Shown: piece after piece, positions 16,650-35,644 of the stretch
How the letters are laid out: the number at the start of each line of letters is the position of its first letter
Position numbering within the stretch: the stretch's first letter is position 1
Origin: Actinoallomurus soli
Lineage (GTDB): Bacteria; Actinomycetota; Actinomycetes; Streptosporangiales; Streptosporangiaceae
Assembly: GCF_024055715.1 (NCBI RefSeq)
Contig: NZ_JAMXMV010000013.1
Location: forward strand, 62,001-126,000
Direction: 5' to 3'
DNA: 64,000 bases
Translations under genes and position numbers: made by a program
Notes under the pieces: model-generated
Database searches by the model: none
Seen by the model: only the letters and a program-made list of their open reading frames with translations
What the model was told of the DNA's origin: nothing

Positions 16650-16651
16650 GG

Positions 16652-18493: not shown

Positions 18494-18556
18494 GTGCCAC
18501 CTCCAGCGTCAGTGCCGAGGACCAGCACGGGACGTGGTCCTCCGCTCACGATCCGC

Positions 18557-18854: not shown

Positions 18855-19328
18855 ATGACAGAGAGCAAGCAGACAGACAGCCGTGGCGGGCGCGCCGGCG
18901 GTGGCCCCGGCGCGTTCTCCCGGTGGATGCAGCACAAGGTGAACGCGCGTACGAACCGCCGCATCCGTAAGGGCAACGGCACGTTCATGGGCATGGACGT
19001 GCTGATCCTGCACACGGTGGGCAGCCGGAGCGGGGAGCCGCGGCAGTCGCCCGTGGCGTGGTTCGCCGACGGCGAGGACAGCCGGCTGATCGTCGCGTCG
19101 GGCGGAGGGAAGCGGAACCCGGACTGGTACGTCAACCTGATGGCGCACCCCGACCAGGCGTCGATCGAGCTGCCCGGACGGGAGCCGCTCCCGGTGACGC
19201 CGCACTCGCTCGAGGGCGCCGACCGGGAGCAGGCCTGGCAGCGCATCGCCGAGGCCCAGCCCCGCATCGCGAAGTACCAGAGCAAGTCGGAGCGGCAGTA
19301 CCCCGTGGTCCGCCTCACCCCGCGGTGA
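18855..19328 (+). CDS. Nitroreductase/deazaflavin (F420)-dependent family protein
   Basis: A 157-residue protein of the Ddn-type split beta-barrel family that binds F420H2. Diagnostic features are LILHTVGSRSGEPRQSPVAWF (about 50-70; it reads LILHTVGSRSG then EPRQSPVAWF), the GGGKRNPDWYVNLMAHP block (about 80-96) and the C-terminal YPVVRLTPR. A GGAGG ribosome binding site 5 nt upstream fixes the ATG. Family members reduce diverse electron-poor substrates with F420, so the natural substrate cannot be read from sequence. It is monocistronic and converges with the large dehydrogenase gene. Confidence 0.86.
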   Translation: MTESKQTDSRGGRAGGGPGAFSRWMQHKVNARTNRRIRKGNGTFMGMDVLILHTVGSRSGEPRQSPVAWFADGEDSRLIVASGGGKRNPDWYVNLMAHPDQASIELPGREPLPVTPHSLEGADREQAWQRIAEAQPRIAKYQSKSERQYPVVRLTPR

Positions 19329-19447
19329 GCGGATAGAGCGGCGGCCCGTCGGCGCGGCGTCGCGGGCGCAGGTTCCCGTCGAGCGGCAGGCGATCACCCG
19401 CCTGAGCGCGGCCGTTCGCCTGCGGTCGAGGCCGTCTTCAGGCCGGG

Positions 19448-19465
19448 ACCGCCCTCATGGGCGGT
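19448..19465. terminator. Hairpin between convergent genes
   Basis: ACCGCCC (19448-19454) and GGGCGGT (19459-19465) form a perfect 7-bp stem with a 4-nt loop in the 170-bp gap between the two converging stop codons. The rest of the gap shows nothing. Confidence 0.5.
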
Positions 19466-19498
19466 GGTGCTCGCCTTCGGCAGGCGGTCGTCCCCGGC

Positions 19499-22400
19499 TC
19501 ATGGCCGGACCGCGCGGACGAGCGACGCGACCGGGCGGAACAGCGACGCGGCCGGATGGAGGAGCGACGCGACCGGGCGGCCCTGGGCGGGCGGCGTCGA
19601 GCGGCGGTCCCGGGCGGCCAGGAACGCTCCCGCGCCCAGGGCCCCGCCGACCGCCACGGGCAGCGCCACGCGCATGACGCGCCGGCCCAGCGGGGGAGCC
19701 GGTCGCACGCCGACGACGGCCTGCTCGGGCCGGTCCGCCGGGCGCTCGCCGTGACGAGCGTCGCGGGCCAGCTTCATGACCTGGCCGACGTGCATCGCGC
19801 GGCGTCCGGTGCGGGCGTCCTCGATCTGGCTCTTGCAGGAGAACCCGTTCGCGACGACCAGCGTGCGCGGGGCGGCCTGGCGCACCGCGGGCAGCAGGGC
19901 CTGTTCCCCGCAGGCGAGGGAGATGTCGTATTTGCCCTGCTCGAAACCCCACGAGCCGGCGAGGCCGCAGCATCCTCCCTCCACCTCCTGCACCTGCAGG
20001 CCCATCCCGGCCAGCAGCTCCTTCTCGGGCTCGGTGCCGCCGGTGGCCTTGTGGTGACAGTGGCCCCACAGCAGCGCCTTCTCCTCGAGCCGGGGCGGCT
20101 CGATGTCGAAGGCCTGGAAGAACTCGGCGAAGTGGTAGGCGTTGCCGGCGAGGCGCCCGGCGTCGTCGTCGTGCGGCAGCATCCTGGCCAGCTCGTCCTT
20201 GAAGACGGCGAGGCAGCTGGGTTCCATCCCGACGACGGGGGTGCCGGCGCGGATGTGCTCACGAAGGACGCCCAGGACGTCGCGCAGGTAGCGCTGGGCG
20301 ATGTCGAGGAAACCGTAGTCGTACAGCGGCCGGCCGCAGCACACGTGGCCCTCCGGCATGACGACCTGCCAGCCGGCGGCCTCGATCGCCTCGACGCAGG
20401 CCACGCCCACGTCGGTGTGGAAGTGGTTGTTGAACGTGTCGGGGAACAGCACCACGGGACGGCCGTACGGGTTGGTGGTGCCGCCGCGTTCCCGGAACCA
20501 CCGCTGCAGCGTCATCGGGGCGAACCAGGGGGCGGGCCGGCGCCGGTCGACCCCACCGGCCCACTTGGTCAGTCGTGCCAGGCCCGGCGCGTGCAGGAAG
20601 ACGTTGGCGATCTCGGGGATCCGGGCGCCGAGGCGGCAGGCCTGGTCGATGAACCCCATGGCGTAGGCGTAGCGCGGCCGCCACCGGCGCAGTGAGCGGT
20701 AGTGGTGGTACAGGAACTCCGACTTGTACGTCGGCATGTCGACGTTGACCGGGCAGTCGTTCGTGCAGCCCTTGCAGGCCAGGCACAGGTCGAGCGCGTC
20801 GTAGACCTCCCTGGACCGCCAGCCGTCGGTGACCACGTCTCCCTGGAGCATCTCGAACAGCAGCCGGGCCCGGCCTCGGGTGCTGTGCTTCTCCTCACGC
20901 GTGACCTGGTAGCTGGGGCACATCACCTGACCGTCGGCCTCGGGGACCCGGCACTTTCCGACGCCGACGCAGCGGAGCATGGCGTGGGCGAAGTCGTCAC
21001 CGTCCTCCTGGTAGGTGAACCTGGTACGCGGCCGGGGCGGGTCGTACGACGTGCCGAGCCGCAGATTCTCGTCGAGCCGGTACGGGTCGACGACCTTCCC
21101 GGGGTTCATCTTCCACCCGGGGTCCCAGATCAGCTTGAACTCCCGCATCGCCTGGATCAGCTCGGGCCCGTACTGCCGGTCCAGGAGTTCGGCGCGCTGC
21201 TGGCCGTCGCCGTGCTCGCCGGACAGGGTTCCGCCGTAGGACACCACGAGGTCGGCGGCGTCCTCCATGAACGCGCGGTAGTTCGCGATGCCCTGCGCGG
21301 TCCGCAGGTCGAAGCTGATCCGTGAGTGCAGGCAGCCCTGCCCGAAATGCCCGTAGACCTGACCGTGCAGGTCGTGCCGGTCCCACAGCTCGCGCAGGTC
21401 GCGGATGTAGTCCCCGAGCCGTTCGGGCGGTACGGCCGAGTCCTCCCAGCCGGGCCAGTGGTCCCGGCCGTCGGGCGGGAAGGCGGTGGCGCCCAGGCCG
21501 CCCTCGCGGATCGCCCATACCCGTTCGCTGACGCCGCCCTCCTCCTCGCTCTTCAGGACGTCGATCCGATCTCGGGCGTACCCCTTGTCCGCGCGCAGCC
21601 ATGCGATGAAGTCGTGCGCCGTCTTCACCGACTCCTCGGCGGTGTCGGCGCCGAACTGCACCAGCAGCCAGCCGTCCGCGTCGGCGGAGTGGGGCAGTCG
21701 CCCGATGGCGGCGACGTTGCGGTGCTCCTGCCGCTGGTTCTGGATCAGCTGCCGGTCGATGCCCTCCAGGCCGATCGGCCGCCAGCGCTCGACGATCTCG
21801 GGCACGTGCTCGGCGGCGTCCGCGATGTCGCCGAAGGCCACGACCACGGTCGTGCGCATCATGAGGGCCGGCGTCAGCATGAGCGTCACGCGCAACGCCG
21901 TCGCGCAGGTGCTCTCGGTGCCCACGAGCGCCCTGGCGACGTTGAACCCGCGCTCCGGCAGCAGCTCGTCCAGGTTGAAGCCCGAGACCCGGCGCGGCAG
22001 CTCACTGACCGGCCGGTACCCGGCGCGGATCGCGCCGGCGTACCGGTCCCGCAGGTCCCGGAGTCTCGCGTAGATCTCGCCCTTGACGCCACCGGCCGCG
22101 ATGATCTCCTCCAGCCGGTCCTCTTCCCCGTTGCCGACCCAGAACCGTTCTCCGCCGTAGGTCACGATCTCCATGGCGTGGACGTTGTCGGAGGTCCGGG
22201 GGCCGGGACCGTACAGCTGGGACTGCAGCGAGTGGATGCCGCAGGAGTTGTTGCCGAGGTTCCCGCCGATCGCGCACCGGGAATGGGAGGAGGGATCGGG
22301 GCCGAACACCAGCCCCTTCTCGCCGGTCCTCTTGTTCAGCTGCTCGTTGATCACCCCGGGTTCGCAGGTCACCAGCCGCCGTGCGGCGTCGGTCTCGCCG

Positions 22401-22762
22401 ATCCTCGTGAGGTACTTCGTGTGGTCGATGACGACCGCGTAGTTCACCGTCTCCCCGGACAGGCTGGTGCCGCCCCCACGGTTGACGATGGGGGCGCCGA
22501 ACCGCGCGCACACGCGGTGCACCGCCACCACGTCGTCGAGGGTCCTGGGGACGACCACGCCGATCGGCACCTGCCGGAAGTTGGAGCCGTCCGAGGCGTA
22601 CATCGCCTTGGAGGCGGTGTCGAAACGGACCTCGCCCTCGACCTCCGCGCGGAGCGCGCGTTCGAGCGCGCGGACGTTGACGACCTGGGACGACCGGGGC
22701 GGCGCCGGCACCTGCGGTGCGCTCTTGGCCGGGACGTCGACGCGGCTGCTGGTTCGGGTCAT
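19499..22762 (-). CDS. FAD-linked oxidase / Fe-S oxidoreductase, D-2-hydroxyglutarate dehydrogenase-like (YdiJ type)
   Basis: A 1087-residue multidomain enzyme. Residues about 50-260 are a PCMH FAD-binding domain (PIVNRGGGTSLSGE, NNSCGIHS), followed by the FAD-oxidase C domain. A ferredoxin-like cluster CLACKGCTNDCP lies near 670, and two CCG half-domains follow (EGHVCCGRPL and EGGCCGLAGSWG). This is the arrangement of E. coli YdiJ, a D-2-hydroxyglutarate dehydrogenase homologue. Unusual is the C-terminal extension: a hydrophobic segment (VALPVAVGGALGAGAFLAA), then a short tail with imperfect RPVASL repeats, which could anchor the enzyme to the membrane. It is followed on the same strand upstream by the ThDP enzyme gene. 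Confidence 0.85.
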   Translation of the reverse strand: MTRTSSRVDVPAKSAPQVPAPPRSSQVVNVRALERALRAEVEGEVRFDTASKAMYASDGSNFRQVPIGVVVPRTLDDVVAVHRVCARFGAPIVNRGGGTSLSGETVNYAVVIDHTKYLTRIGETDAARRLVTCEPGVINEQLNKRTGEKGLVFGPDPSSHSRCAIGGNLGNNSCGIHSLQSQLYGPGPRTSDNVHAMEIVTYGGERFWVGNGEEDRLEEIIAAGGVKGEIYARLRDLRDRYAGAIRAGYRPVSELPRRVSGFNLDELLPERGFNVARALVGTESTCATALRVTLMLTPALMMRTTVVVAFGDIADAAEHVPEIVERWRPIGLEGIDRQLIQNQRQEHRNVAAIGRLPHSADADGWLLVQFGADTAEESVKTAHDFIAWLRADKGYARDRIDVLKSEEEGGVSERVWAIREGGLGATAFPPDGRDHWPGWEDSAVPPERLGDYIRDLRELWDRHDLHGQVYGHFGQGCLHSRISFDLRTAQGIANYRAFMEDAADLVVSYGGTLSGEHGDGQQRAELLDRQYGPELIQAMREFKLIWDPGWKMNPGKVVDPYRLDENLRLGTSYDPPRPRTRFTYQEDGDDFAHAMLRCVGVGKCRVPEADGQVMCPSYQVTREEKHSTRGRARLLFEMLQGDVVTDGWRSREVYDALDLCLACKGCTNDCPVNVDMPTYKSEFLYHHYRSLRRWRPRYAYAMGFIDQACRLGARIPEIANVFLHAPGLARLTKWAGGVDRRRPAPWFAPMTLQRWFRERGGTTNPYGRPVVLFPDTFNNHFHTDVGVACVEAIEAAGWQVVMPEGHVCCGRPLYDYGFLDIAQRYLRDVLGVLREHIRAGTPVVGMEPSCLAVFKDELARMLPHDDDAGRLAGNAYHFAEFFQAFDIEPPRLEEKALLWGHCHHKATGGTEPEKELLAGMGLQVQEVEGGCCGLAGSWGFEQGKYDISLACGEQALLPAVRQAAPRTLVVANGFSCKSQIEDARTGRRAMHVGQVMKLARDARHGERPADRPEQAVVGVRPAPPLGRRVMRVALPVAVGGALGAGAFLAARDRRSTPPAQGRPVASLLHPAASLFRPVASLVRAVRP
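19518..19580. repeat. Three 21-bp tandem repeats at the 3' end of the dehydrogenase gene
   Basis: Three adjacent 21-bp units (19518-19538, 19539-19559, 19560-19580) share the core AGCGACGCG and encode the repeated RPVASL-like peptide of the C-terminal tail. The copy number could vary by slippage without a frameshift. Confidence 0.75.
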
Positions 22763-22780
22763 GATGCTCCTTCTCGTCGC

Positions 22781-22810
22781 TGCGCGCCTGCGGGCTGCGC
22801 GCCTGCGGGC
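22781..22810. repeat. 15-bp tandem duplication in the intergenic gap
   Basis: TGCGCGCCTGCGGGC occurs twice without a gap, at 22781-22795 and 22796-22810, between the ThDP enzyme stop and the start of the downstream dehydrogenase gene. No function is apparent. Confidence 0.6.
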
Positions 22811-22865
22811 GGGGCGTCCGCGGGTCCTGCGGGAGACCTCCTCGTGGCCGGTCGCCGGGGTGCGC

Positions 22866-24665
22866 TCAGCGCCCGCCGCGGCCCGGCACCGCCTCGTACA
22901 GTTCGGCGAGCTTCTGCCGGAAGCCCGCGACCGCGATGCCGACCTTCTCCGGGTCGTGCAGGGCGGCCTTGGCGGCCTTCTTGCCCTGCTCCCACATGAT
23001 GTGCGGGGGCATCGGCGGAACCTCCCGGTCGACCATGAACTCCAGGACCACGGGCCCCTTGGCGGCGAAGGCGCGGTCCCAGGCGTCGCCGACCGCGTCC
23101 TGGTCGTCGCAGTAGATGCCGGTCAGCCCGAGCAGCTCGCCCCACTTGTGGTACGGCACGTCGGGGATGTACTGGGAGCCGAGGAACTTCGGGTCGCCGG
23201 CCATCGCCCGCTGTTCCCAGGTGACCTGATTGAGATCCTGGTTGTTGAAGACGCAGAAGATCAACGGCGAGCGGCCGAGACGGCCCAGGTAACGCTTGAC
23301 GGTGATCATCTCGTTCATGCCGTTCATCTGGAAGGCGCCGTCGCCCACGAACGCGATGACCGGCCGGTCGGGGTAGGCGAACTTCGCCGCGATGGCGTAC
23401 GGGGTCCCCGGGCCCATCGTGGCCAGCGTTCCGGACAGGGACGCCTTCATGCCCCGGCGCAGCTTGAGCTGCCGCGCCCACCAGGTGGTCGAGGAGCCGG
23501 AATCGGCGGTGAGGATGGCGTCGTCGGGCAGCCGGCCGGACAGCTCCCACGCGACGGCCTGGGGGTTGATCTTCGTGAATCTCTGGTGGGACCGGCGCTC
23601 GACGATGCGCCACCACTTGCGGACGTTCTCCTCGATCCCCCGCCGCCAGGACCGGTCGGCCTTGCGCTTCAGGAGCGGGATCAACGCCCGCAGCGTCTCC
23701 TTGGAATCGCCGATCAGGTGGGCGTCCATGGGGTAGCGGATGCCGATCATCCGCCCGTCGATGTCGATCTGCACTCCGCGTGCTTTGCCCTCGTCGGGCA
23801 GCCACTCGGCGTACGGGAAGCTGGTGCCGATCATGAAGAGCGTGTCGCAGTTCATCACCATGTCGTCACTGGCCTTGGAACCCAGCAGGCCGATGGGGCC
23901 GGTGACGAACGGCAGGTCGTCGGGCAGGGCCGCGCGGCCCAGGAGCGCCTTGGCCACGCCGGCGCCCAGCAGGTCGGCCGTCTCGACGACCTCCGGAGCC
24001 GCCTCGACGGCGCCCTGGCCGATGAGCATGGCGACCTTCTCGCCGGCGTTGAGGATCTCGGCCGCCTTGCGGAGCTCCTGCTCGTCGGGCAGGAGCCGCG
24101 GCTTGGTCCAGCCGACGCTCGAATAGACGGCGCCGTGCTCCTTGGGCGGTGACGGCTCGGCCGGGGACTCCTGCACGTCCTCGGGCACGATGACCGTCGC
24201 GACGCCGCGGGTGGTCAGGGCGATCTTCAGTGCCCGGTCGATCAGGTGGCGGGCCTGGGCGGGCGCCATGCAGACCTCGACGTACTCCGACACGTCCTTG
24301 AAGAGGGTGGTGAGGTCGACCTCCTGCTGGTAGTGCGCGCCCAGCGACATCCGCTTCTGCTGGCCGACGATCGCCAGCACGGGCTGATGGTCCAGTTTGG
24401 CGTCGTACAGGCCGTTCAGCAGGTGGATCGCGCCCGGTCCCGAGGTCGCGGTGCAGCAGCCGACCTCGCCGGTGAACTTCGCGTGCGCGCACGCCATGAA
24501 CGCGGCCATCTCCTCGTGCCGCGGCTGGATGAACTCCGGGTCACCGCCCGCCCGGTCGTACGCGCCCAGGAAACCGTTGATCCCGTCCCCGGGATATCCG
24601 TAGACGCGGTGGATGCCCCACTGGGTGAGCCGATGGAGCATGTAATCACTGACCTTCTGTCCCAT
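22866..24665 (-). CDS. ThDP-dependent pyruvate oxidase/dehydrogenase (quinone)-like enzyme
   Basis: A 599-residue enzyme of the pyruvate oxidase/acetolactate synthase superfamily. The conserved Glu that activates the cofactor lies in PRHEEMAAFMA near residue 50. The ThDP pyrophosphate/metal motif is FVGDGAFQMNGMNEM (GDG, about 438), with the paired asparagine in FNNQDLNQVTW about 28 residues on. The central domain is the FAD-like middle domain. Closest in general form is PoxB, which converts pyruvate to acetate and CO2 and reduces quinone, but other decarboxylases cannot be excluded. ATG 24665 is chosen for GGGAG about 6 nt upstream. The large FAD/Fe-S dehydrogenase gene lies 103 bp downstream on the same strand. 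Confidence 0.83.
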   Translation of the reverse strand: MGQKVSDYMLHRLTQWGIHRVYGYPGDGINGFLGAYDRAGGDPEFIQPRHEEMAAFMACAHAKFTGEVGCCTATSGPGAIHLLNGLYDAKLDHQPVLAIVGQQKRMSLGAHYQQEVDLTTLFKDVSEYVEVCMAPAQARHLIDRALKIALTTRGVATVIVPEDVQESPAEPSPPKEHGAVYSSVGWTKPRLLPDEQELRKAAEILNAGEKVAMLIGQGAVEAAPEVVETADLLGAGVAKALLGRAALPDDLPFVTGPIGLLGSKASDDMVMNCDTLFMIGTSFPYAEWLPDEGKARGVQIDIDGRMIGIRYPMDAHLIGDSKETLRALIPLLKRKADRSWRRGIEENVRKWWRIVERRSHQRFTKINPQAVAWELSGRLPDDAILTADSGSSTTWWARQLKLRRGMKASLSGTLATMGPGTPYAIAAKFAYPDRPVIAFVGDGAFQMNGMNEMITVKRYLGRLGRSPLIFCVFNNQDLNQVTWEQRAMAGDPKFLGSQYIPDVPYHKWGELLGLTGIYCDDQDAVGDAWDRAFAAKGPVVLEFMVDREVPPMPPHIMWEQGKKAAKAALHDPEKVGIAVAGFRQKLAELYEAVPGRGGR

Positions 24666-25036
24666 CTCGAACTCCCTGTGTCGTTCGGGGCCGTCCGGCG
24701 GACCGTCCACACGCGCAGACGGGTATGGCGGTCGGCTACCCGCAACCTCCACTGCACGTGGGCACGAAGCCGCAAAAACTCGACAATCGCCGCATTTCGC
24801 ATGACATTCGCTCACCCGGTGTCAGGGCGGCGGGCCCCTCGACGATCAACGCTCCAGGAGAGACCGTGCCGGATCACGCACGCAGCGCCCGCTGCGAAGA
24901 CGACCTCGGAGGAACTGCGGAGCCTGCTGACCGGTGAGCGCGCCGCGCCGGGGCGTTCGCACGCGACGATGCGCCATGATCCGGCATCTCGCTCTACAGT
25001 CACGTAGCGAAGCGTGCGAAGAGTGAAGGGTGGGAC
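24666..25036. other. Divergent intergenic region with a long-range inverted repeat
   Basis: This 371-bp gap separates the ThDP enzyme gene from the nuclease-helicase operon. A perfect 9-bp inverted repeat, TTCGCACGC (24955-24963) and GCGTGCGAA (25011-25019), flanks 47 nt just before the operon start, and a -10-like TACAGT lies between the arms at 24994-24999 without a recognisable -35. I see no gene. Confidence 0.45.
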
Positions 25037-27703
25037 ATGGGGGGACTGCAGTCCGGGGGCGGAACGAGTGCCGTGGCCGCGTCGGCGCATGCCGGGTGCG
25101 AACGGTTCCGGCTGACCGATCCCTTCATCACCCGCAGGACGCGCAAGGTCCTGGCCGCCCGCATCGGCCACCCCGACGTCGGTGCCGGGATCCCCGAGGC
25201 CCGGTGGACGCGGGCGATGACCTTCGAGACCCTCGTGCGCTCCGAGCGCTTCGTCTCCGAGCTGCTCACCAAGACGGTCGGGCGGCTCGATCTCGCCCGC
25301 CCGGAGGCGGTCCGCAGGCGCGACTGCCGCGGCACCGTCGCCGGCACCGCCGCCGAACTCGCCGCCGCGCACCGCGACGCGGAGTCCTCCGGCCAGGCGA
25401 CCATGCTCACCGCGCTCGCCGTCCCGTACCTCGACCTCGAGAACATCCCCGACGCGACCCCCGTCCAGCCGGACTTCGCGATCGTCTGTCCTCGGGAGGA
25501 GGACGGCCGGGCCGTCGGATCGTGGCTGATCATGGGCGACGCCAAGGACTACGAACGGATCCGCTCGCGCATCGACGACGGCCGGATGCTCAAGGGCTTC
25601 CTGCAGGTCGCGCTGGGCGCCGAGTCCGCCGCCGCGTGGAGCGGTCTGCCGGCGGGCATGCGCGTGCACCGCTGCGGGGCGCTCGCCGTGCCGCGCAACG
25701 CCTTCCTGCAGCCCGAGGCCGTCGTGGAGTCGCTGGACGACCACCGGATCGAGGTTCGCACGAGGGCCGACGAACGGCTGAAGGCCAGGGCCGAACTCGG
25801 CGACGACCCGCCCGCGCAGGACGGACTCGGCCCGTACGTCGCCGGCCTGACCGCGAACTTCGACCCGCGCGGCTGCGCGACCTGCAACCTGTTCTTCTAC
25901 TGCCGGGCGGAACTGCGCGGCTCCGGCGACCCGCTCGCCGTCCTCACCGAGATCGGGATCGACCGGCTCAGACGTCCCGCCGTGGCGGGCCTGGTGTCCG
26001 GGGACGGCGCCGACGGGGCCGCGCCGCGGAGCGTCGTCGACCAGGTGCGCGCCACCGTCACCGGCCTGCCGTCCTGGACCGGGCGCCTGCGCACCGACCC
26101 GTGCGGACTGCCGGGCACCATCGATCTCGTCCTCGTGAAGTCGGACGCGTCGGCTCTCGGCGTGCACGGCGTGGCCGTACGGCGGATGCGGGCGGACGGG
26201 CCGACCGCCTGGACGCGGCGGGTGTTCGCCGATCCGCAGTCCCCGTTCACCCGCCGCGCGGTGATGCGGATCCTGGGCGCGGCCATCCGCGAGAGCCGGG
26301 AGGCGGGCACCGGGCCGGTCCACCTGGTCGTTCCGGACCAGCCGACCGCCGACCTGCTGGCCACCGCCGCGGACTCCCTGGCCGGCGTCGAACTCAGCCG
26401 GCTGCGCTGGCAGCACGACCTGGACAGCGGCCGCCCGGCCCTGACCTTCGACGGGGAACCCGCCACGCTGCCGGAGCCGCTGCACGACGACGAGCGGCTC
26501 GCGGTCGCCTTCCTCCTGGAACAGGACCGGGCCCGGGCCATGAGCCTGCGCACGCCCATCGTCGACCTGCGGGCCGTGCTGGCCGCGCACGTGACGCCCG
26601 GCGGCCCGGCCGTCGACGCGGGCCGCCTGGACTACCTCCTCACCTGGGCCGAGGCCACCGGCCCGCTCGACCACCGCGAGATCTCCGACGCCATCGCGGA
26701 GCGACCGGAGACCCCCGGCGCCCGGCTGTCCAACGTCGCCTCCGACGCGATCGACAGGGCGCGCCGCGCGGAGGACACGGCGGCGTACGAGGCGCTCGTC
26801 GGCGCGGCCCTGGACTACCGCGTCGAGGTGCTCGAGCGGGCGCACCGGGTCCTCGGCGGGCTGGGGATCTCCCGGCTGCGCGAAGCGCACCGCGTCCTGG
26901 AGGCCGACGCGCAGGAGATCTGGGGCCGCCGCGTCGCGTTGCAGGCCTCCGACCTCGTCCGCTTCTCCCGGATGCACCCGCGCTGGCGCAACTCCCACGT
27001 CGACCTCCTGGACGCCGACCGTACGTGCTTCGAACAGCTCACCTGCCTGGCCGACACCGCGGCCGCGCGGGACAGGGCGGCCGACGCGGGCGTCCGCGAA
27101 CTGGCCCTGGCGACGGTGATCGGCCTCGACCCCATCCGGCTCGACGTGAGGTCACGGCGCCTGGGCGACGGATCGGAGGTCGTCGCCCTGCACGTGGGCG
27201 ACCACGCCGTCGTCGAGCGGCCGGAAACGGTCTTCAAGATCCAGAAAGGATCCTTCAAGCTCGGGCGGATGCCGGTCGGGACGCTGAGGCACATCGACGA
27301 CGCCGGGGGACTCGGCTGGGACCCCCTCGTCGTCCCCGACCTGACGGTCGGCGACACCCTGGTCCTGGCCGACACCGCCTGGTTCACCCGGTTCAAGTCG
27401 GGTCATGAGATCGCCGTGAAGCGGCCGTCCCTGGACGACCGGTCCGCCCCGAAGCCCACCTGCACCCCGGACGCCTACACCGAGGATCCGGAGGAGCACC
27501 AGTACTGCTGCCGCCCGCACACGGCCGCCGAGGCCGAGTGGGCCGACACGCTGGCCGAGCGCCGGTCCCGCGGCGAGCTCAACCCGCAGGTCTGGCCGCC
27601 GCTGGTGGACGAAGAACGGTTCGACGTCGGACCGCACGACGAGCGACCGCCGCTCGCGGCCACGGACGTCCCCGGCCATCTCACCCTCGACGACCTGGAC
27701 TGA
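25037..27703 (+). CDS. Cas4/AddB-type Fe-S PD-(D/E)XK nuclease, large, unclassified
   Basis: An 888-residue protein with a RecB-like nuclease core in its first third. PD at 145-146 (TPVQPDFAIV) and DAK at 168-170 (IMGDAKDY) are the metal-binding motif, and Gln190 follows where RecB/Cas4 nucleases keep a conserved Gln. Cys21 plus Cys280, Cys283 and Cys289 (C-x2-C-x5-C) match the split iron-sulphur clasp of AddB, Cas4 and Dna2. The remaining 590 residues are unrecognised; they hold a helical region (about 540-690), a beta-rich stretch (about 690-800) and a second Cys/His patch (EDPEEHQYCC). The ribosome binding site GGGTGGG precedes the ATG. The helicase gene starts 6 bp after the stop. Most likely a split Dna2-like machine; a defence role is inference. 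Confidence 0.78.
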   Translation: MGGLQSGGGTSAVAASAHAGCERFRLTDPFITRRTRKVLAARIGHPDVGAGIPEARWTRAMTFETLVRSERFVSELLTKTVGRLDLARPEAVRRRDCRGTVAGTAAELAAAHRDAESSGQATMLTALAVPYLDLENIPDATPVQPDFAIVCPREEDGRAVGSWLIMGDAKDYERIRSRIDDGRMLKGFLQVALGAESAAAWSGLPAGMRVHRCGALAVPRNAFLQPEAVVESLDDHRIEVRTRADERLKARAELGDDPPAQDGLGPYVAGLTANFDPRGCATCNLFFYCRAELRGSGDPLAVLTEIGIDRLRRPAVAGLVSGDGADGAAPRSVVDQVRATVTGLPSWTGRLRTDPCGLPGTIDLVLVKSDASALGVHGVAVRRMRADGPTAWTRRVFADPQSPFTRRAVMRILGAAIRESREAGTGPVHLVVPDQPTADLLATAADSLAGVELSRLRWQHDLDSGRPALTFDGEPATLPEPLHDDERLAVAFLLEQDRARAMSLRTPIVDLRAVLAAHVTPGGPAVDAGRLDYLLTWAEATGPLDHREISDAIAERPETPGARLSNVASDAIDRARRAEDTAAYEALVGAALDYRVEVLERAHRVLGGLGISRLREAHRVLEADAQEIWGRRVALQASDLVRFSRMHPRWRNSHVDLLDADRTCFEQLTCLADTAAARDRAADAGVRELALATVIGLDPIRLDVRSRRLGDGSEVVALHVGDHAVVERPETVFKIQKGSFKLGRMPVGTLRHIDDAGGLGWDPLVVPDLTVGDTLVLADTAWFTRFKSGHEIAVKRPSLDDRSAPKPTCTPDAYTEDPEEHQYCCRPHTAAEAEWADTLAERRSRGELNPQVWPPLVDEERFDVGPHDERPPLAATDVPGHLTLDDLD

Positions 27704-27709
27704 ACGGCG

Positions 27710-29212
27710 ATGACGATCACCTTCTCGGCCCCCGCCGCACCGCCCGAGGACGCGCTTCACCACGACGCCGCGGCCGAGGGGAACATCGAGGCAGCGCAAA
27801 GGGCCATCGACGCCCTCCTGGCGGCCCTCGAGGGCACCGCCGGCTACGAGAGGATCCTGCTGCGCGCCGCCGCCGGCGCCGGGAAGTCCTACGCGCTCGT
27901 GCGCATGGTCCGGGAGGCCCTGGCGCATGAGAACTGCGGCCGGGTGGGGGTGACCGCCTTCGCGAACAAGCAGGTGTTCCCCCTCGCCGGCGACCTGGGA
28001 AGGGAACTGGGCGCCTCCCAGGTCTGCCTGTTCGTGGCGAAGGACCGGCTGCCCGAGGTCCCGCAGGACGTGCTCGACCAGGTCTCCGTCGCGACCTCCG
28101 CCGGCGCGATCCCCGACACGTGCGCCGTGGTCCTCGGAACCTCGCACAAGATGGGCGCGTGGGGGGAGCAGCAGCGGCTGCTGGACCGCCTCGGCCCCGC
28201 CGTCAACGCGACGCTGCCCTTCGACGTCCTGTTCGTCGACGAGGCGTGGCAGCTTCCCCTCCACCGGTACGCGACGGTCGAGGGGCTGGCCCCGCTGTCC
28301 GTCGGGGTCGGTGACGTCGGCCAGCTCCCTCCGATCGACCCCGGCCAGAACCCCTGGCGCGGCGACTCCGGCTACAACCCCTACCGCGCCTGGCCGACCG
28401 CCTACGAGAAGGACGAGAAGACCTTCGCCGTCGACCTTCCCGCCGTGTGGCGCCCGACGGCCGCGCAGCTTCCCCTCTGGCGGGCCTTCTACGGTGATTG
28501 GGACCGGCTGGACTGCGTGGCGGCGCCGGGAGACCGGGCCGTCGAGCTGCCGGCCATGACCGGGCCCGCCGCCGCGGTCTGGGCGTCCGTCGCCACCGGC
28601 GCCCCGACCCTGCTCGAGGTCGGCGGTCTCCCGGACCCCGAGGCGCCGGACATCGACCCGGACCTGCTCGGCGTGGTCGAGGAGATGCTCATGCCCCTCC
28701 TGGAGAACGGGTTCGCGATCACGCGCCGCCGGTACGACGGCGCCGGCCGGCCCCTGGACGAGGAACGGATCACCTCCGGCGCGCCGTCCGGGGATCCCCT
28801 GATCGTCGTCCTCGCCACCCGCAACCAGGCCGTGGACGACGCGGCGGCGATGGTCGAGCGCCTGACGGACAAGTACGGCCTGCCGCCGGGCGTGCTGCTC
28901 GCCTCGACCGTCGACTCCTGGCAGGGCCAGACCAACGCCGTCACCGTCGCCGTCCACCCGCTGTCCGGGGCCGACCGGCTGGACGAGTTCAACTCGGCGT
29001 TCGGCCGGCTCGCCGTCACCTGTACCCGGGCCACCCACGGTCTGCTGATGGTCGCCCGTGCCGGTCTGGACGAGCTGCTGGGCGAGGCTCCGGCGCGGCC
29101 CGGGACGCCTCTCGGCGAGCCCGGCAGCCGGTCCCTTCCCCGCCAGACCCACCAGCGGATCCTCCGGACCTTCAGCCGCGGGACGCTGAAGGCCGGCCCC
29201 GCGTCAGCGTGA
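27710..29212 (+). CDS. SF1 helicase (AAA_19/UvrD-like), partner of the Fe-S nuclease
   Basis: A compact 500-residue superfamily 1 helicase. Motif I is AAAGAGKS with Lys59. Motif II is VLFVDEAW with Asp177-Glu178, so the usual DExQ appears as DEAW. Motif III is GDVGQLPPI (201-209). Motif IV is LATRNQAVD with Arg371. Motif V is STVDSWQGQ (399-407) and motif VI is TCTRATHGL with Arg440. The order and the GDxxQLPP form resemble the Upf1/RecD2/Dna2 side of SF1 rather than UvrD. At 500 residues the 1B/2B insertions must be small. It starts 6 bp after the nuclease stop, so the two form one operon, and no third gene follows in this direction. Confidence 0.85.
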   Translation: MTITFSAPAAPPEDALHHDAAAEGNIEAAQRAIDALLAALEGTAGYERILLRAAAGAGKSYALVRMVREALAHENCGRVGVTAFANKQVFPLAGDLGRELGASQVCLFVAKDRLPEVPQDVLDQVSVATSAGAIPDTCAVVLGTSHKMGAWGEQQRLLDRLGPAVNATLPFDVLFVDEAWQLPLHRYATVEGLAPLSVGVGDVGQLPPIDPGQNPWRGDSGYNPYRAWPTAYEKDEKTFAVDLPAVWRPTAAQLPLWRAFYGDWDRLDCVAAPGDRAVELPAMTGPAAAVWASVATGAPTLLEVGGLPDPEAPDIDPDLLGVVEEMLMPLLENGFAITRRRYDGAGRPLDEERITSGAPSGDPLIVVLATRNQAVDDAAAMVERLTDKYGLPPGVLLASTVDSWQGQTNAVTVAVHPLSGADRLDEFNSAFGRLAVTCTRATHGLLMVARAGLDELLGEAPARPGTPLGEPGSRSLPRQTHQRILRTFSRGTLKAGPASA

Positions 29213-29254
29213 ACCCGCAGGAACGGCGGCACGTGCCTCGACACCGGCGGCGGG

Positions 29255-30316
29255 TCAGGGCGTGCTCAGGTCGAATCGCCGTACCGTCACCGTGCCGCCG
29301 AGGGACCGGGTGGCGTAGTTGAAGATCGCGTATCGGTAGCCCATGAAGAACTGCCAGCTGTCGTCCATCGTGAAGGCGGGGCCGAAGGAGGTGAAGTGGG
29401 TTCCGTCGGTGCTGTACGAGAAGTGCCCCAGCCGTCCGGCGCCCGGATGGATGTCCGCGTTGACGCGGAGCCAGATGTGCCCGCCGGAGACGGGGGTGGA
29501 CGCGACCTGAGTCCCGGTACTCGTGGTGTTCCAGTTGGTGTCCATGGTGATGCCGTCCATCCGGACGAGCTTCGCGCCGCCGTTGTCGCGCTGGACGCCG
29601 ATCCATCCCGAGGAGTCGCGGAGCAGGGCGAGGCCGGCCCGGTCGCCGTCCTTCATCTGTGAGTAGTCGAGTTCGACGGTGGCGGTCGAGGTGGGTCCGA
29701 GGATCCGGTGCGTGAGGGTGTTCCGCGCGGAGTAGAGGTCGTTCGTGACCGTCGCGGTCTGCAGGGCGAGCCCGTTCCCCGAGGACCATCTGGTGTTGTC
29801 GGGGTTGTGGTTCCACTCCCACTCCGGGCCCAGGGCCGTCCCGCTGAAGGTGTCGGTTCCGGTGGGCTGCTTCACCTGGTGCGCCGGGCGCGGCACGTTC
29901 GGGTACGGGTAGGTGTCGCCCCAGCCGCCGTTGCTGCCGGTCTGCACCTGGGGCCAGCCGTCGGAGGTCCAGGTCACCGGGGCCAGGACGGGGATCCGCC
30001 CGCCCGGGTAGGAGTCCACGAACGCCATGGAGTACCACTGGCCGTTCTGCAGCTGCACGAGGCCGCCCTGGTGCGGGTTGCCGCTGCCGGAGACCGGGCT
30101 GGTGATCTTGTTGATCAGCGGACGCATGGTGTACGGCCCGAACGGGCCGCTGGTGGACTTCAGGACGTACTCGGCGTCGGCCGGATGGGTGACGAGGATG
30201 TAGTAGGCGCCGTTGATCTTGTAGAAGCGCGAGCCCTCGATGGTCCCGACGTTCGACGGCGAGGTGAAGACCTGCTGCGTCCTGACCTGACCGGTCCCGT
30301 CCGCGGGTCTGTCCGG
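29255..30316 (-). pseudogene. 3' portion of a split GH43 arabinanase/xylosidase gene
   Basis: This frame encodes the C-terminal part of a GH43 enzyme. It opens in the catalytic five-bladed propeller at TIEGSRFYKING, where the Glu is the family general acid, continues through GGLVQLQNGQWYSMAF and ends in a concanavalin-like C-terminal beta-sandwich (DTFSGTALGPEWEW onward). There is no start codon or signal peptide: the frame runs into a stop at 30317-30319 where GH43 similarity ends. The missing 5' part, with signal peptide, CBM2, linker and first propeller residues, is found on the same strand 4 kb away at 34334-34891. About 150 residues of propeller are in neither piece. Confidence 0.8.
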
Positions 30317-30379
30317 TTAACGGCTCTGTCGCACTACCGTACAGTCCCGATCCGCAAGCTGGAGGATGTTGCGATCTGT

Positions 30380-31270
30380 ATGGGTGACGGGCACGGACCC
30401 GGACGGTCTGAGCAGGAGGACTCGCTCGGAGCCGGATGGGAGATGCACCGGCCCGCGGTTTTCGGTGTGGCCTACCGGCTGCTGGGGAGTGTGGCCGATG
30501 CCGAGGATGTGACCCAGGATGTGTGGCTGCGGGCGGCCGGAGCGGATCTGCAGGGCATCGGTGATCTGCGGGCCTGGCTGGTGACGGTGGCCGCGCGACG
30601 GTCGTACGACATTCTCAAGAGTGCCCGGGTCCGTCGGGAGACCTATGTCGGGCCATGGCTGCCGGAGCCGCTGCTGACGGGGCCGGACGCGTCGAAGCCG
30701 GTACTCGTCGATGAGTCCGTCAGTTCGGCGATGCTGCTGATCATGGAGGAGCTGTCCCCGCCGGAGCGGGTGGCCTTCGTCCTGCACGATGTCTTCGGTC
30801 TTGAGTTCGGCCGGATCGCCGAAGTGCTGGACGTCTCCGTGCCGGGTGCCCGGCAGCTCGCCTCGCGGGCGCGACGGCGGGTGGCCGAGGCGAAGCAGTC
30901 CATGCCGCAGGCGTCGAAGGCGGAACGCGAACGCGTCCTCGCGGTTTTCCGCTCCGCGTACGAGGCCGGGGACCTGGCCGGCTTGGTCAGGCTCCTGCAC
31001 CCGGACGCCGTCTACGCCACCGACGGCGGCGGCAAGGTCTCCGCGGCACGCAAGCTCATCCACGGCGGCGAGCGCGTCGCCGAGGTCATGGTGCGTGTGG
31101 GGCGCCAGTGGCACCCGGACCGCATCGACTTCGCCGAGGTCGGCGGCGAGCTCGCCCTGGTGTTCTACCGCGAAGGCAGGGTCTACTCCGTCGACACGGT
31201 CCAGATCACAGACGGTCTGATCACCGCGTACCGCAGGGTCATCAATCCCGACAAACTTGTGCGCGTCTGA
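30380..31270 (+). CDS. ECF41-family RNA polymerase sigma factor with SnoaL-like C-terminal domain
   Basis: A 296-residue sigma factor. Region 2 (YRLLGSVADAEDVTQDVWLR) and region 4 (LSPPERVAFVLHDVFGLEFG; helix-turn-helix to about residue 175) are followed by an NTF2/SnoaL-like domain. Three ECF41 hallmarks are present: WLPEPLL in the sigma2-sigma4 linker, DGGGKV in the C-terminal domain and the terminal NPDKL. In ECF41 proteins the C-terminal domain controls activity in place of an anti-sigma factor. The ATG at 30380 has GGAGG unusually far upstream (15 nt). The downstream oxidoreductase, with an ECF41-type promoter, is the expected target. Confidence 0.9.
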   Translation: MGDGHGPGRSEQEDSLGAGWEMHRPAVFGVAYRLLGSVADAEDVTQDVWLRAAGADLQGIGDLRAWLVTVAARRSYDILKSARVRRETYVGPWLPEPLLTGPDASKPVLVDESVSSAMLLIMEELSPPERVAFVLHDVFGLEFGRIAEVLDVSVPGARQLASRARRRVAEAKQSMPQASKAERERVLAVFRSAYEAGDLAGLVRLLHPDAVYATDGGGKVSAARKLIHGGERVAEVMVRVGRQWHPDRIDFAEVGGELALVFYREGRVYSVDTVQITDGLITAYRRVINPDKLVRV

Positions 31271-31272
31271 GC

Positions 31273-31299
31273 TGTCACGTTCGGAGGGGCTACCTCGTC
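31273..31299 (+). promoter_or_regulatory. ECF41-type promoter before the oxidoreductase gene
   Basis: TGTCACG (31273-31279) is followed after 16 nt by CGTC (31296-31299). This agrees with the ECF41 consensus as I remember it (TGTCACA and CGTC). It lies just after the sigma factor stop codon and about 165 bp before the next gene. Confidence 0.65.
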
Positions 31300-31467
31300 T
31301 CCCTGATGAGAACGCAAAACGGGCGACGAAGGAATGCGCGAGCAGGTGAAATCGATCATGCGGAACGGCATACATCCACCTGCTGCATCTTCCCGATGAC
31401 GAGCCGCTATGAGCCCTGTGTGTGAACGGGCCGCGCGCTCGAGTCGCCCCTCCAAGCAAGGACCTGT

Positions 31468-32388
31468 ATGCAAGCCATCACTGTTCGAGACCGTGACGCC
31501 GGTCTGGCCGGGCTGTCCCTGGAGGACATGCCCTACCCCCATGCGGCCGAAAACGACGTCATCGTGCGGGTGCACGCGGCGGGCTTCACCCCTGGCGAGC
31601 TGGACTGGCCGGGCACGTGGGCCGATCGCGCCGGCCGTGACCGGGCGCCAAGCGTGCCCGGGCACGAGTTGTCGGGTGTCGTCGTAGAGCTGGGGTACGG
31701 CACCACCGGCCTGAGTGTCGGCCAGCGGGTGTTCGGCCTGGCTGACTGGACCCGCAACGGCTCGCTCGCCGAGTACGTCGCGGTGGAAGCCCGCAACCTC
31801 GCGCCGCTGCCGGCGGACATCGACCACACCCTGGCCGCCGCACTGCCGATCTCCGGGCTGACCGCCTGGCAGGGCCTGTTCGACCACGGCCGCCTTACCA
31901 CCGGCCAGACCGTCCTGATCCACGGTGCCGCGGGCGGCGTCGGCTCGATCGCGGTACAGCTCGCCCGCGAGGCCGGCGCCCGTGTCATCGGCACCGGCCT
32001 GGCTTCCGACCGGGACAGGGCACTCGCCCTGGGCGTCGACACCTTCCTGGACCTGCAGACCGAGAAGCTGGAGGACGCCGGCGAGGCCGACGTCGTGTTC
32101 GACGTGATCGGCGGCGACATCCTCGACCGCTCGGCCACCCTGGTCCGGGCCGGTGGCGCGCTCGTCACCATCGTCATGCCGCCCAAGGTCCAGCCCAAGG
32201 ACGGGCGGGCCGTCTTCTTCGTGGTCGAACCCGACCGTGCCCGGCTCATCGACCTCGCTACGCGGCTGAGGGACGGACGGCTCAAGCCGATCGTCGGCGC
32301 CGTGCGGCCACTCGCCGAAGCACCCGCCGCATTCGCCCCCGCCCCGCGCACCCCCGGTAAGACGATCATCCGCATCACCGAAGACTGA
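31468..32388 (+). CDS. MDR-superfamily NADPH:quinone oxidoreductase-like protein
   Basis: A 306-residue zinc-independent member of the medium-chain dehydrogenase/reductase superfamily. The N-terminal GroES-like domain contains VPGHELSGVV (about 60-70). The Rossmann nucleotide motif is HGAAGGVGSIAVQLA (about 152-166). Zinc ligands of the alcohol dehydrogenase group are not conserved, which fits quinone oxidoreductases. AAGGA is 6 nt before the ATG. The gene is the probable target of the upstream ECF41 sigma factor, since ECF41 genes typically neighbour a carboxymuconolactone decarboxylase, oxidoreductase or epimerase. The substrate is unknown. Confidence 0.86.
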   Translation: MQAITVRDRDAGLAGLSLEDMPYPHAAENDVIVRVHAAGFTPGELDWPGTWADRAGRDRAPSVPGHELSGVVVELGYGTTGLSVGQRVFGLADWTRNGSLAEYVAVEARNLAPLPADIDHTLAAALPISGLTAWQGLFDHGRLTTGQTVLIHGAAGGVGSIAVQLAREAGARVIGTGLASDRDRALALGVDTFLDLQTEKLEDAGEADVVFDVIGGDILDRSATLVRAGGALVTIVMPPKVQPKDGRAVFFVVEPDRARLIDLATRLRDGRLKPIVGAVRPLAEAPAAFAPAPRTPGKTIIRITED

Positions 32389-32402
32389 GCAGGAGACCCC
32401 TC

Positions 32403-32720
32403 GTGGTCACCATGAGGATCGCCGGCGGCCTCCTGGCCGTCGCCACGCTGGCTGGGGCCACCGGCTGTACCGCCTCGGTCCAGCCCACCCACACCAAGAC
32501 GCCGACCGCCACCGCGGCATCGAAGCACCCCACCGAAACCCTGACCCCCCTGCTCCAGCAGGCCCTGCCGAACGTGAAGGGCAAGACGTTCACCTCTGCG
32601 GTCGTCGACTTCCCGCCCAGCGCACGCGCCGTGCCGCACCGGCACGGCCAGGCATTCGTCTACGCCTACGTCCTCGAAGGCACCGTGCGCAGCAAGCTCG
32701 ACGGCAAGCCCGTCGCGCTC
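32403..32720 (+). pseudogene. Truncated cupin-domain lipoprotein
   Basis: GTG at 32403 with AGGAG 7 nt upstream opens a gene for a lipoprotein: a hydrophobic N terminus, then GATGC as lipobox (Cys about 22), a Thr/Pro-rich spacer and the first half of a cupin (VPHRHGQAFVYAYVLEGTV, with the His-x-His metal ligands). After codon 106 the reading frame enters antisense transposase sequence, so the second cupin motif is lost. The abrupt change at 32720/32721 marks a recombination junction. It follows the oxidoreductase by 14 bp and was probably the third gene of the ECF41 unit. Confidence 0.75.
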
Positions 32721-34202
32721 GATGCGCTCGTAGGCGGCCACCGAGGAGAACTCCTCGGTGAAGCCGGTCAGGAAGTCGGCGTTCTTCAGTACGTCCAGGA
32801 GGTCCAGGACGCCCCAGCGGCGTGCGACCTCCTCCTTGAGGGCCGCCAGCCCGGTGGGCTCGGGGATGCGCTCGACCTTGCCCTTGTCGTCGACGACCGC
32901 CTCGCGCCAGTCCTTGCGCACCACGCCGTTCATGGGCACTTCGTCGCCGGCGTCGTAGAAGCGGGTCTTGCCGTCGACGTCGGCGTACTTCTTCAGCAGC
33001 TTCATCGCGTCCATCACCGGCCGGTAGGCGGTGTTGTTGCACTTGAAGCCCAGCGTGTTCAGCAGCGGAGGCAGCATCTGCTGGTAGTACGAACTGTAGG
33101 AGGAGCGCAGGGTGGTGCGGACCTTGGCCTTGAAGACCTTCTCGTTCGCCTTCGCCTCGGCCACCAGCTCACGGAGCGTCTTCTCCCCGACCACCGGGAA
33201 CAGGGCCCGGCGTACGACATCGTCGGGCTTGTCGACGGCGGCCGTCGCCAGCTTGAAGAGGATGCCCTCCTTGTCCCGGACCCTCTTCAACTCGGCGGTG
33301 AGCTGCTTCTCCACCCGCTGCTCGGCACGGGCGTTGATCTTGTGGACCAGGGCGACCAGCAGGTCGACCAGGGCGTCGGTGATCTCGGCCTGACGGGACG
33401 AGCACAGCGCCGCGAGCAGGGTGATCCGTACGCCCTCGCTCGTGTCGCGGAAGTCCGAGGGGTACATCTTGATCGCCCGTCCCCGCCAGGCGGCCACCAG
33501 CTTCTCCGCGCAGTCCGCGAACAGCCCCTCGGGCAGCCCGAGCTTGCGCACGTCGTTGAGCTTGGTGATCTCCGTGAGCAGGGAGTCCAGGCCCACCGCG
33601 CCGGGGTCGCGCTTGAGCGCGGCCGGCAAGGCGGTCCCCGCCTCGTTGTCCTCGGCCACCAAAGACGGCAGCCAGGCCGTGCCCACCTCGCCCAGGCGGC
33701 CGATCGTGCGGGCGCAGAACGTCTTCTCCCACTTGCCCCGCGCCGCGACAAGTACCTTCTCGACCCGGGTCCGGCCTGGCGGCTCGATCTTCCGGGCCCG
33801 GCACTCGACCAGCAGGGCCTCGCGCTGCCGGTCCTCCACCAGCTCGACCGGACAGACCTCCACGGCCAGCCACCCGGCCAGCGCCTTCTCGTCCGCGACC
33901 GTCGACGGCCGGAACCCCAGGGCCTCACGGATCTGCTTGCGGTGGTACTCGGCAGTCCGGCCGACCAGCGTGTACTTCGTGAAGTCGGTGGCCGGGACCT
34001 TCACCAGATCGGCGACGTACTCCACCGCGACCGGCGGGACCTCTTCCAGCACATCAGGGAACCGGCCTTCCAACTCGAAGAACTTCAGCAACAGGCTGAA
34101 GCCGAGCCGGGTCGCCCCGCTCTTGTTCGCCACCAGGTCCCAGTCGCCGTCTACCAGCGTCCAGTTCGCCAACAGCTCCTCTGGCGACCACTCTTGCCGC
34201 AC
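32721..34202 (-). pseudogene. Tn3-family transposase, N-terminal half only
   Basis: About 494 residues of a Tn3-type TnpA. The N-terminal DNA-binding domain begins VRQEWSPEELLANW, with NKSGATRLGFSLLLKFFELE following. Helical segments such as RWGVLDLLDVLKNADFLTGF are typical of the middle region. Full-length TnpA is near 1000 residues, and the C-terminal DDE catalytic domain is absent because the frame runs into the truncated cupin gene. The product cannot catalyse transposition. GTG at 34202 with a G-rich ribosome binding site is the likely start, about 130 bp from the right boundary of the inserted segment, as expected for a gene near a transposon end. Confidence 0.82.
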
Positions 34203-34306
34203 GCCCGCCCCCCTGGCCTCGATCACTCGATCACTCGATCAGACCAACGACGGCGCCCCGGACCGGGAAACGGGACGCATCCGGCTACCCGCGGCCTACT
34301 TTGCGG

Positions 34307-34330
34307 CTGGTGTCTGAACTAGGACACCAG
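34307..34330. repeat. 24-bp palindrome at the element/GH43 boundary
   Basis: CTGGTGTC (34307-34314), an 8-nt centre and GACACCAG (34323-34330) form a perfect inverted repeat 3 bp from the GH43 fragment. It may be part of a transposon terminal repeat or a recombination site. No second copy is visible in the window. Confidence 0.6.
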
Positions 34331-34333
34331 GGC

Positions 34334-34891
34334 CTAGTAGAACGTGTCGCCCATGCGGAAGACGTCGGGGTCGGCGTAGTCCTCCCACAGGACCGGGTTG
34401 CCGTAGGTCGCCGAGGGCGGCCAGAGGCCGTCGGTGTCCGTCGGGGTCGGTGTCGGCGTGGGGGTCGGTGTGGGGCTGCCGGAGACGCTTCCGGTGCAGG
34501 TGACGCCGTTGAGGGCGAAGTCGCCGGGAGCGGGATTGGAACCGTTCCAGGTGCCGTTGAAGCCGAAGCTCGCGGTGCCGCCGCTGGGGACGGAGGCGTT
34601 GTCGCCGGCGTTGGTGACGCTCACCTGGGGGCCGGGAGTGCCGAGAGTGCCGTTCCAGAGTTGGCTGACGGTCTGCCCGGCGGTGAACGACCAGGTGAGG
34701 CGCCAGCCGTTGATCGCGTCACCGAGGTTCTTGATGGTCACTCCGGCGCCGAAGCCTCCCTGCCATTGGTCGGTGACCGTATAGGTCACCTGGCATCCGG
34801 CGGCGTGTGCCGAGACGGTGGTGACGACTCCGATGGTGCCGAGCGCGGCCGTCACGATCGGCAGCCAGGCCCGATGTCGGGAGATTCTCAT
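34334..34891 (-). pseudogene. 5' portion of the split GH43 gene: signal peptide, CBM2 and first propeller residues
   Basis: A 185-codon frame with an N-terminal secretion signal (about 1-31, ending SAHAAG), a CBM2-type cellulose/xylan-binding module (GCQVTYTVTDQWQGGFGAGV, conserved Trp residues, closing Cys in GVTCTG), a Pro-Thr linker, and then the start of a GH43 catalytic domain. That start is NPVLWEDYADPDVFRMGDTFY, read in parts as NPVLWEDY and ADPDVFRMGDTFY, where the Asp of ADPD is the family base. It ends in a TAG created where the inserted element begins. The continuation lies at 29255-30316. As it stands it could at most yield a secreted binding module. Confidence 0.83.
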
Positions 34892-35140
34892 CCAGGTCCT
34901 CCGGTCGGGTCACCTCGGGGAATACGGGGCCTCTTCGGCGCCGTCGCCGACTCATCGAGCCGGCCGCGTCGCCGACGACGTCCCTGCCCTTCGCGGCGGT
35001 CGGCGGCAGCCCGGCGACCGCCCCGAAGAGTCTCGGCGGCCGGACCATCGGGCTGTCCCGCTGACGAGGCCCGGCGTGTCCCGCCGGCGGTCACGCCCCC
35101 TGGGGTGGCGGGACCGCCGGCGGGCGCATGGGTCGCCGTA

Positions 35141-35175
35141 GATAGTTAAAACAGCCTTATTAAGTTATCGTTAGT
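35141..35175. promoter_or_regulatory. AT-rich operator/promoter region of the marR-MFS operon
   Basis: Thirty-five AT-rich bases, in sharp contrast to the GC-rich surroundings, lie directly before the marR start. They contain an imperfect dyad, GATAGTTAA (35141-35149) against TTAAGTTATC (35160-35169), and two further TTAG/GTTA half-site-like motifs. This fits a self-regulated MarR promoter. The GC-rich 34892-35140 before it shows no gene. Confidence 0.5.
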
Positions 35176-35179
35176 ATCT

Positions 35180-35644
35180 ATGGACGAGACGGACGTATCG
35201 CCCGCAGCCCCGGATGATCCGGATGCGAGCGAGATCGCGGCGGCGCTGCGCCTGAGCGTGGGCCGGATCGCGCGCAAGATGCGCCAGGCCAAGGGATCCG
35301 CGGGCCTGGCGCTCTCGGAGATGTCGACACTGGCCAGGCTGGACCGGGAGGGCCCGAGGTCGCCGAGCGCGCTCGCCGCCGTCGAGGGCGTACGGCCCCA
35401 GGCCATGGCGACCACCCTGGCCACCTTGGAGGGACGCGGCCTCGTCGACCGGCGCCCGGACGAGAGCGACGGCCGCCGGGCGGTGATGACGATCACCGAG
35501 GCGGGCCGCGCGCTGGTCGCCGACCGGCGCTCCGAATCCGTACGGCGCCTGGCCGCCGTCATCGACACGGAGCTCACGCCGGCCGAGCGGCGCTCGCTCC
35601 TTCCCGCGCTTCCCCTGCTCGACCGACTGGCGGAACGGCTGTGA
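35180..35644 (+). CDS. MarR family regulator of the adjacent efflux gene
   Basis: A 154-residue winged-helix protein: recognition region ALAAVEGVRPQAMATTLATL (about 68-87), wing VDRRPDESDGRRAVMTIT and a C-terminal dimerisation helix. Its stop overlaps the start of the MFS transporter gene (GTGA, 35641-35644). Together with the AT-rich dyad just upstream this is the standard layout of a MarR repressor controlling its own operon and a drug exporter. The ligand is not predictable. Confidence 0.88.
   Translation: MDETDVSPAAPDDPDASEIAAALRLSVGRIARKMRQAKGSAGLALSEMSTLARLDREGPRSPSALAAVEGVRPQAMATTLATLEGRGLVDRRPDESDGRRAVMTITEAGRALVADRRSESVRRLAAVIDTELTPAERRSLLPALPLLDRLAERL

Follow-up and report, generated by a model that had tools for sequence, protein, structure and literature searches.

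A nuclease and a helicase form a tight gene pair

We analyzed a 64,000-nt stretch of the Actinoallomurus soli genome (contig NZ_JAMXMV010000013.1, positions 62,001 to 126,000; hereafter the window) that encodes a tight pair of genes on the plus strand, 6 bp apart. The product of the first gene, NUC (25037..27703, +), is 888 aa long and includes a Cas4/Dna2-like nuclease domain; the second gene, HEL (27710..29212, +), encodes a 500-aa superfamily 1 (SF1) helicase most like UPF1/Dna2. NUC and HEL are separate open reading frames with a stop codon between them in the window and in the 41 places where this was measured, and NUC has a single match in the A. soli genome. Two annotated plasmid records call both products hypothetical proteins, and we found no account of the pair in the literature searched (openly licensed PMC papers).

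In its predicted structure, NUC residues 1–300 (25037..25936, +) resemble the Cas4/MGME1/Dna2 nucleases. This domain carries C21, PD145–146, DAK168–170 and C280/C283/C289, and thereby the four cysteines (C...CxxCx5C) and the PD...(D/E)xK core that characterize Dna2/Bad-type nucleases, a pattern that points to an Fe-S protein. NUC residues 358–621 (26108..26899, +) are predicted, less surely, to adopt a probable DEDD-exonuclease (RNase H-like) fold, in which the catalytic DxE that forms the first motif of DEDD exonucleases is absent and K368-x-D370 is invariant instead. A β-rich stretch at residues 689–795 (27101..27421, +) is seen in the secondary structure of the AlphaFold2 model, and residues 809–828 (27461..27520, +) may form a second metal site, as C809, H821, C824, C825 and H828 are unchanged in all 36 aligned rows. 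NUC had no match in Pfam, PADLOC-DB 2.0.0 or NCBIfam up to E 1, and a PDB sequence search returned nothing that names it.

Foldseek placed HEL closest to UPF1/Dna2, with UvrD ranked close behind by VIA-align, and HEL has the features of a Dna2/Bad-type helicase, an SF1 enzyme of the UPF1/Dna2 type (SF1B), for which we infer 5′ to 3′ polarity. All seven Pfam matches of HEL fell below the cut-off with no UvrD model among them, and its best PADLOC-DB match was MkoC (E 0.0044); membership in any PADLOC-DB system was considered and rejected, as neither protein had a confident match. An original prediction made from the DNA letters had proposed a Cas4/Dna2-kind nuclease with an Fe-S cysteine pattern beside an SF1 helicase. 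Motifs and structure prediction bear out the nuclease and the UPF1/Dna2 neighborhood of HEL bears out the helicase, so that "split Dna2-like" holds as a description; the likeness to AddB that was also suggested gained no specific support, HEL being closest to UPF1/Dna2 by Foldseek.

The pair is patchily distributed and lies in a variable island

We collected 43 places with NUC, comprising 36 loci from a scan of genome contigs, two plasmids from a search of 72,556 plasmid records, four new places among 394 sampled genomes of the class, and the window. HEL directly follows NUC in 42 of the 43, the remaining place (L013) being a contig end, and of the 41 places that allowed measurement, 39 have the two genes within 20 bp of each other. 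The two exceptions are A. spadix (L005), where NUC is split between frames near 12196-12382, and M. colombiense (L014), where HEL is split near 12539-12606, by decay or sequencing error in each case. Against the loci L002, L003, L004 and L006, dN/dS is 0.32–0.40 for NUC and 0.16–0.25 for HEL; values below 1 indicate that both genes are kept.

NUC matches occur in four of eight genomes of the genus, in 5 of 60 relatives (A. soli included), and in only 8 of the 394 class genomes, a patchy and rare distribution. Those eight are A. soli itself, a short remnant (G185), two genomes already found by the contig scan (L034 and L035) and the four new places; among the congeners, the matching stretches of G002, G004 and G007 overlap L003 (A. 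iriomotensis), L005 (A. spadix) and L002 (A. purpureus), respectively. The two plasmids carrying the pair are both from Rhodococcus, one typed mobilizable and the other conjugative.

In the window, the pair lies within a region of about 28.4 kb (10276..38647, no strand assigned) whose flanking genes, at 9840-10094 and 38658-40025, are separated by about 0.2–0.8 kb in the congeners G002, G003 and G005 and by 4.3 kb in G006; the G007 stretch includes just the right flank, and in G001 the right-hand gene had no match at E 1e-80. DNA similarity to the congeners ends near 10275 and returns near 38648. Because the flanks adjoin in congeners and similarity breaks at the same points, we conclude that the region, including the pair, is a variable island. 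In three congeners this hotspot is all but empty, and in others it has different contents. In A. spadix the pair occupies the same site with a partly different set of genes around it, and in A. purpureus and A. iriomotensis the neighbors of the pair differ from those in the window. The original prediction had been open to refutation by a pair that is core and syntenic in relatives, and the counts for genus, relatives and class together with the island gave no such refutation.

Just downstream of the pair, 29255-30127 and 34334-34891 (both on the minus strand) are pieces of apparently one GH43/CBM2 glycosidase gene, with about 4 kb between them that encode a sigma factor, an alcohol dehydrogenase and part of a Tn3-type transposase (DUF4158). 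As an argument for defense, proximity to such mobile DNA, which the earlier statement had invoked, is weak in itself.

Unrelated restriction systems adjoin the pair in other genomes

We called and clustered the neighboring genes with our own script, identified one or two representatives per cluster and mapped these back by tblastn. A restriction–modification (RM) system of one of three unrelated kinds is the immediate neighbor of NUC-HEL in 25 of the 43 places. The first kind is a Type ISP enzyme (cluster c2; Type_ISP_C, ISP_coupler and Mrr_cat_2), which adjoins the pair in 12 places, in 11 of them upstream and head-to-head (L004, L014, L015, L016, L021, L022, L027, L029, L035, L037 and L062) and in one downstream (L023); only the start of the gene lies within stretch L022, and it is broken or partial in L035 and L037. 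The second is a Type III-like system of Mod (c10; N6_N4_Mtase) and Res (c3; ResIII), found downstream and co-directional with the pair in 11 places (L025, L028, L030, L031, L032, L034, L036, L038, L039, L061 and L063). The third, a BPTD_3080-family restriction enzyme (c14) with a methyltransferase, lies downstream in two (L011 and L012). Apart from L023, the arrangement is constant within each RM type. Further clusters comprise an N6_N4_Mtase protein (c40), a UvrD helicase with PDDEXK_1 (c4) and a Schlafen-group-3 helicase (c7). RM genes also adjoin the pair in three of four places that played no part in choosing the neighbor queries.

Type ISP relatives were detected in 23 of the 394 class genomes (E 1e-50), adjoining the pair in two, and Mod relatives in six, adjoining it in three. 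With so few genomes carrying either enzyme, chance adjacency to the pair should be negligible, and since relatives of both enzymes also occur apart from it, NUC-HEL is optional to the RM enzymes. The pair is real, unnamed, accessory and often RM-linked. We hold with about even confidence that NUC-HEL is an accessory, horizontally moving two-subunit helicase–nuclease of Actinomycetota that works with DNA-cleaving defenses, above all ATP-dependent RM systems, and degrades DNA opened by its partner; that it has some role in defense, as the original prediction proposed, we consider probable. The plasmid copies, the variable island and the dN/dS values also fit this reading.

No RM system of these kinds adjoins the pair in 17 of the 43 places, the window included, and L013 could not be judged downstream because its contig ends there. 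In the window, the Type ISP, Type III-like and BPTD_3080-like queries matched nothing; PF02384 has six places in the A. soli genome, none of them on the window's contig, and PF01555 has none. Five of the 17 (L009, L010, L018, L019 and L020) have defense-type neighbors resembling GmrSD, LmuB, PDC-S48, ZacC or PDC-S37/ProA, with a BPTD_3080-like fragment in L020, and L033 and L064 have one such gene each. Such company also fits the partnership with defense systems that we favor. The RM-less places, among them the window's near clade, which retains the pair at dN/dS below 1 without RM, favor a stand-alone defense or plasmid-exclusion system in which the pair senses foreign DNA (ends or replication intermediates) and degrades it, with RM proximity reflecting defense-island clustering only. 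However, RM genes stand directly head-to-head or follow co-directionally in 25 places with the near-constant arrangement described above, and we regard a stand-alone system as rather unlikely.

A further alternative is a guard module, in which the RM partner silences the pair and phage inhibition of the partner frees it to degrade all DNA including that of the host, as for PrrC beside EcoPrrI. The coupling with unlike RM systems fits this idea, as would regulation shared with the head-to-head Type ISP gene, which is a guess, and PrrC provides a precedent (PMC12707154). The 17 places without a nearby RM system of these kinds, and hence without a guarded partner, make such a module very improbable.

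We built a NUC tree of 43 rows by a quick method with SH-aLRT support only, in which 10 of 40 inner branches are open. The RM partner label changes nine times by parsimony, compared to a mean of 20.7 for shuffled labels and a value as low in none of 200 shuffles; trusting the starred branches only, there are at least five changes for Type ISP and at least two for Type III. The window belongs to a clade of six RM-less rows whose sister is the ISP-linked Pseudonocardia bannensis locus L004, a placement that suggests loss of the RM partner in the window clade.

Two observations concern the RM loci themselves. In seven places (L011, L012, L028, L030, L031, L032 and L036), a UvrD-Cas4-type gene faces the RM genes of the locus in convergent orientation, and together with HEL it would presumably place two motors of opposite polarity in one island. 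Toward its end, the Type III-like Res (L030:16252-18837 and ten relatives) shows an invariant PD ... D-P-H at a position where one would expect ExK, which is possibly a variant nuclease site.

A distant three-gene set cuts both ways

We also found a sister helicase of HEL, detected in 69 of the 394 class genomes (E 1e-30), within a set of a 379-aa nuclease-like protein, a 502-aa protein and a 453-aa, UPF1-like helicase, in that order. Judged by profile comparison, the two helicases are clearly homologous (hhalign E 1.6e-30 over 414 columns), and NUC 15–299 aligns with the 379-aa protein (C35, PD157–158, EIK172–174 and C301/C305/C311) at E 4.8e-6 and a probability score of 86, the Cys motifs included; a relationship of the 502-aa protein to the C-terminal part of NUC was not demonstrable (E 0.12). 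No name for the set turned up in the libraries searched. It occurs on Streptomyces plasmids and in other actinomycetes, and we surveyed 19 regions, 16 from class genomes and three from plasmid-collection records, of which 18 contain all three genes and one (L123) the helicase alone.

Six of these regions, all of one genus (L114, L115, L116, L121, L126 and L127; group g49, probably Streptomyces), are syntenic: L114 spans 19.9 kb, and the five others cover 15.0–18.5 kb of it. All six lack a further 281-aa gene that is present in 10 of the 19. The set thus looks core in that genus, and this housekeeping-like relative is a real caution in reading NUC-HEL. It favors a repair or replication helicase–nuclease, accessory and sometimes traveling with RM, that perhaps mends host breaks made by the RM enzyme, a role also in keeping with the domain plan of Dna2 and Bad (PMC7430649). 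The patchiness of the pair (8 of 394 genomes), its presence on plasmids and in a variable island and its frequent tie to RM run against such a role, which we consider quite improbable.

Wadjet genes adjoin the sister set in three of the 19 regions, all with the 281-aa gene, where the resulting four-gene set (281, 379, 502 and 453 aa) lies directly beside jetABCD (L081:2318-14021, L082:4368-16073 and L125:5-13939); PADLOC models matched none of the first three proteins of the L081 set, nor did any Pfam model above its cut-off. A partial ISP-like match stands beside the sister helicase in L120 and L125. The sister set therefore cuts both ways, as a housekeeping-like relative some of whose accessory copies lie beside a DNA-cleaving defense.

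A proposed model for degradation of restricted DNA

In the helicase–nuclease partnership that we favor, the RM partner would recognize unmodified DNA and break it, HEL would load on the exposed single strand and travel 5′ to 3′, and the strand would thread through the Fe-S domain of NUC and be cut repeatedly, destroying the broken DNA of the phage or plasmid ahead of any resealing or recombination. We infer that NUC and HEL form a complex and act after the partner's cut. The degenerate exonuclease-fold domain, β-rich stretch and Cys/His tail of NUC could hold DNA or the partner, and the window pair, because it has no RM neighbor, may act in trans or alone. More tentatively, the pair may be a general post-cleavage "DNA shredder" traded between unrelated DNA-cleaving defenses (Type ISP, Type III-like and BPTD_3080-like RM and, for the distant three-gene form, Wadjet), teamed in some Type III-like loci with the UvrD-Cas4 machine of opposite polarity to destroy restricted DNA with two motors, in the manner of RecBCD. 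Overall, the interpretation in the original prediction is partly supported: the candidate defense role is supported, and the links to three kinds of RM and the syntenic sister set formed no part of it.

DNA cut by a restriction enzyme is usually left to host recombination nucleases. If our reading is right, some defenses carry their own disposal machine, a mobile helicase–nuclease that has swapped its restriction partner several times, and a family annotated as hypothetical proteins on plasmids gains a function. A traded shredder would add a layer independent of the host end-degrading enzymes, which are targets of phage inhibition. It is now possible to ask directly whether the pair strengthens restriction by enzymes of three unrelated types.

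Comparison with known systems

Gabija, DISARM and BREX are operons of nucleases and/or helicases. The pair is unlike Gabija, as the original prediction had held, since neither protein has a confident PADLOC match: NUC has none and HEL matches GajB only at E 0.041, so that a GajA and GajB combination was not found. No DISARM or BREX model was among the PADLOC matches of either protein up to E 1. The sister set agrees with NUC-HEL in gene order and summed length, with its nuclease and middle part encoded by separate genes. The TM0106 family RecB-like nuclease (TIGR03491), here a single chain with a C-terminal SF1 helicase, looks similar by eye in its layout, with the nuclease first, then a DxE-bearing middle part and then the helicase. 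Its helicase profile aligns with HEL (hhalign E 2.1e-9 over 153 columns), whereas its nuclease profile gave no alignment with NUC (E 0.39), NUC has no TIGR03491 match, and the family has no place in the A. soli genome.

Bad, a Dna2-like enzyme from bacteria, has been purified, and the account of it notes that Mycobacteria and Rhodococcus have a second class (PMC7430649). As in the Dna2/Bad plan outlined there, an Fe-S "iron staple" nuclease precedes an SF1B helicase in NUC-HEL. Unlike the single chain of Dna2 and Bad, NUC-HEL is split in two genes, has the extra DEDD-fold, β-rich and Cys/His parts, and is RM-linked.

UvrD-Cas4 fusions beside Type III RM, described in 2017 and proposed as an ancillary part of several defense systems (PMC5704561), are the closest published idea to NUC-HEL. 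Both combine a Cas4-like nuclease with an SF1 helicase and are linked to Type III Mod/Res, and relatives of one UvrD and PDDEXK_1 protein (from L030) are themselves the convergent neighbors in 7 of the 43 NUC-HEL places. Unlike the fusion, NUC-HEL consists of two chains with a helicase nearer UPF1/Dna2 than UvrD by Foldseek, its nuclease has about 590 further residues and no PF12705 match, and the pair joins not only Type III-like but also Type ISP and BPTD_3080-like systems.
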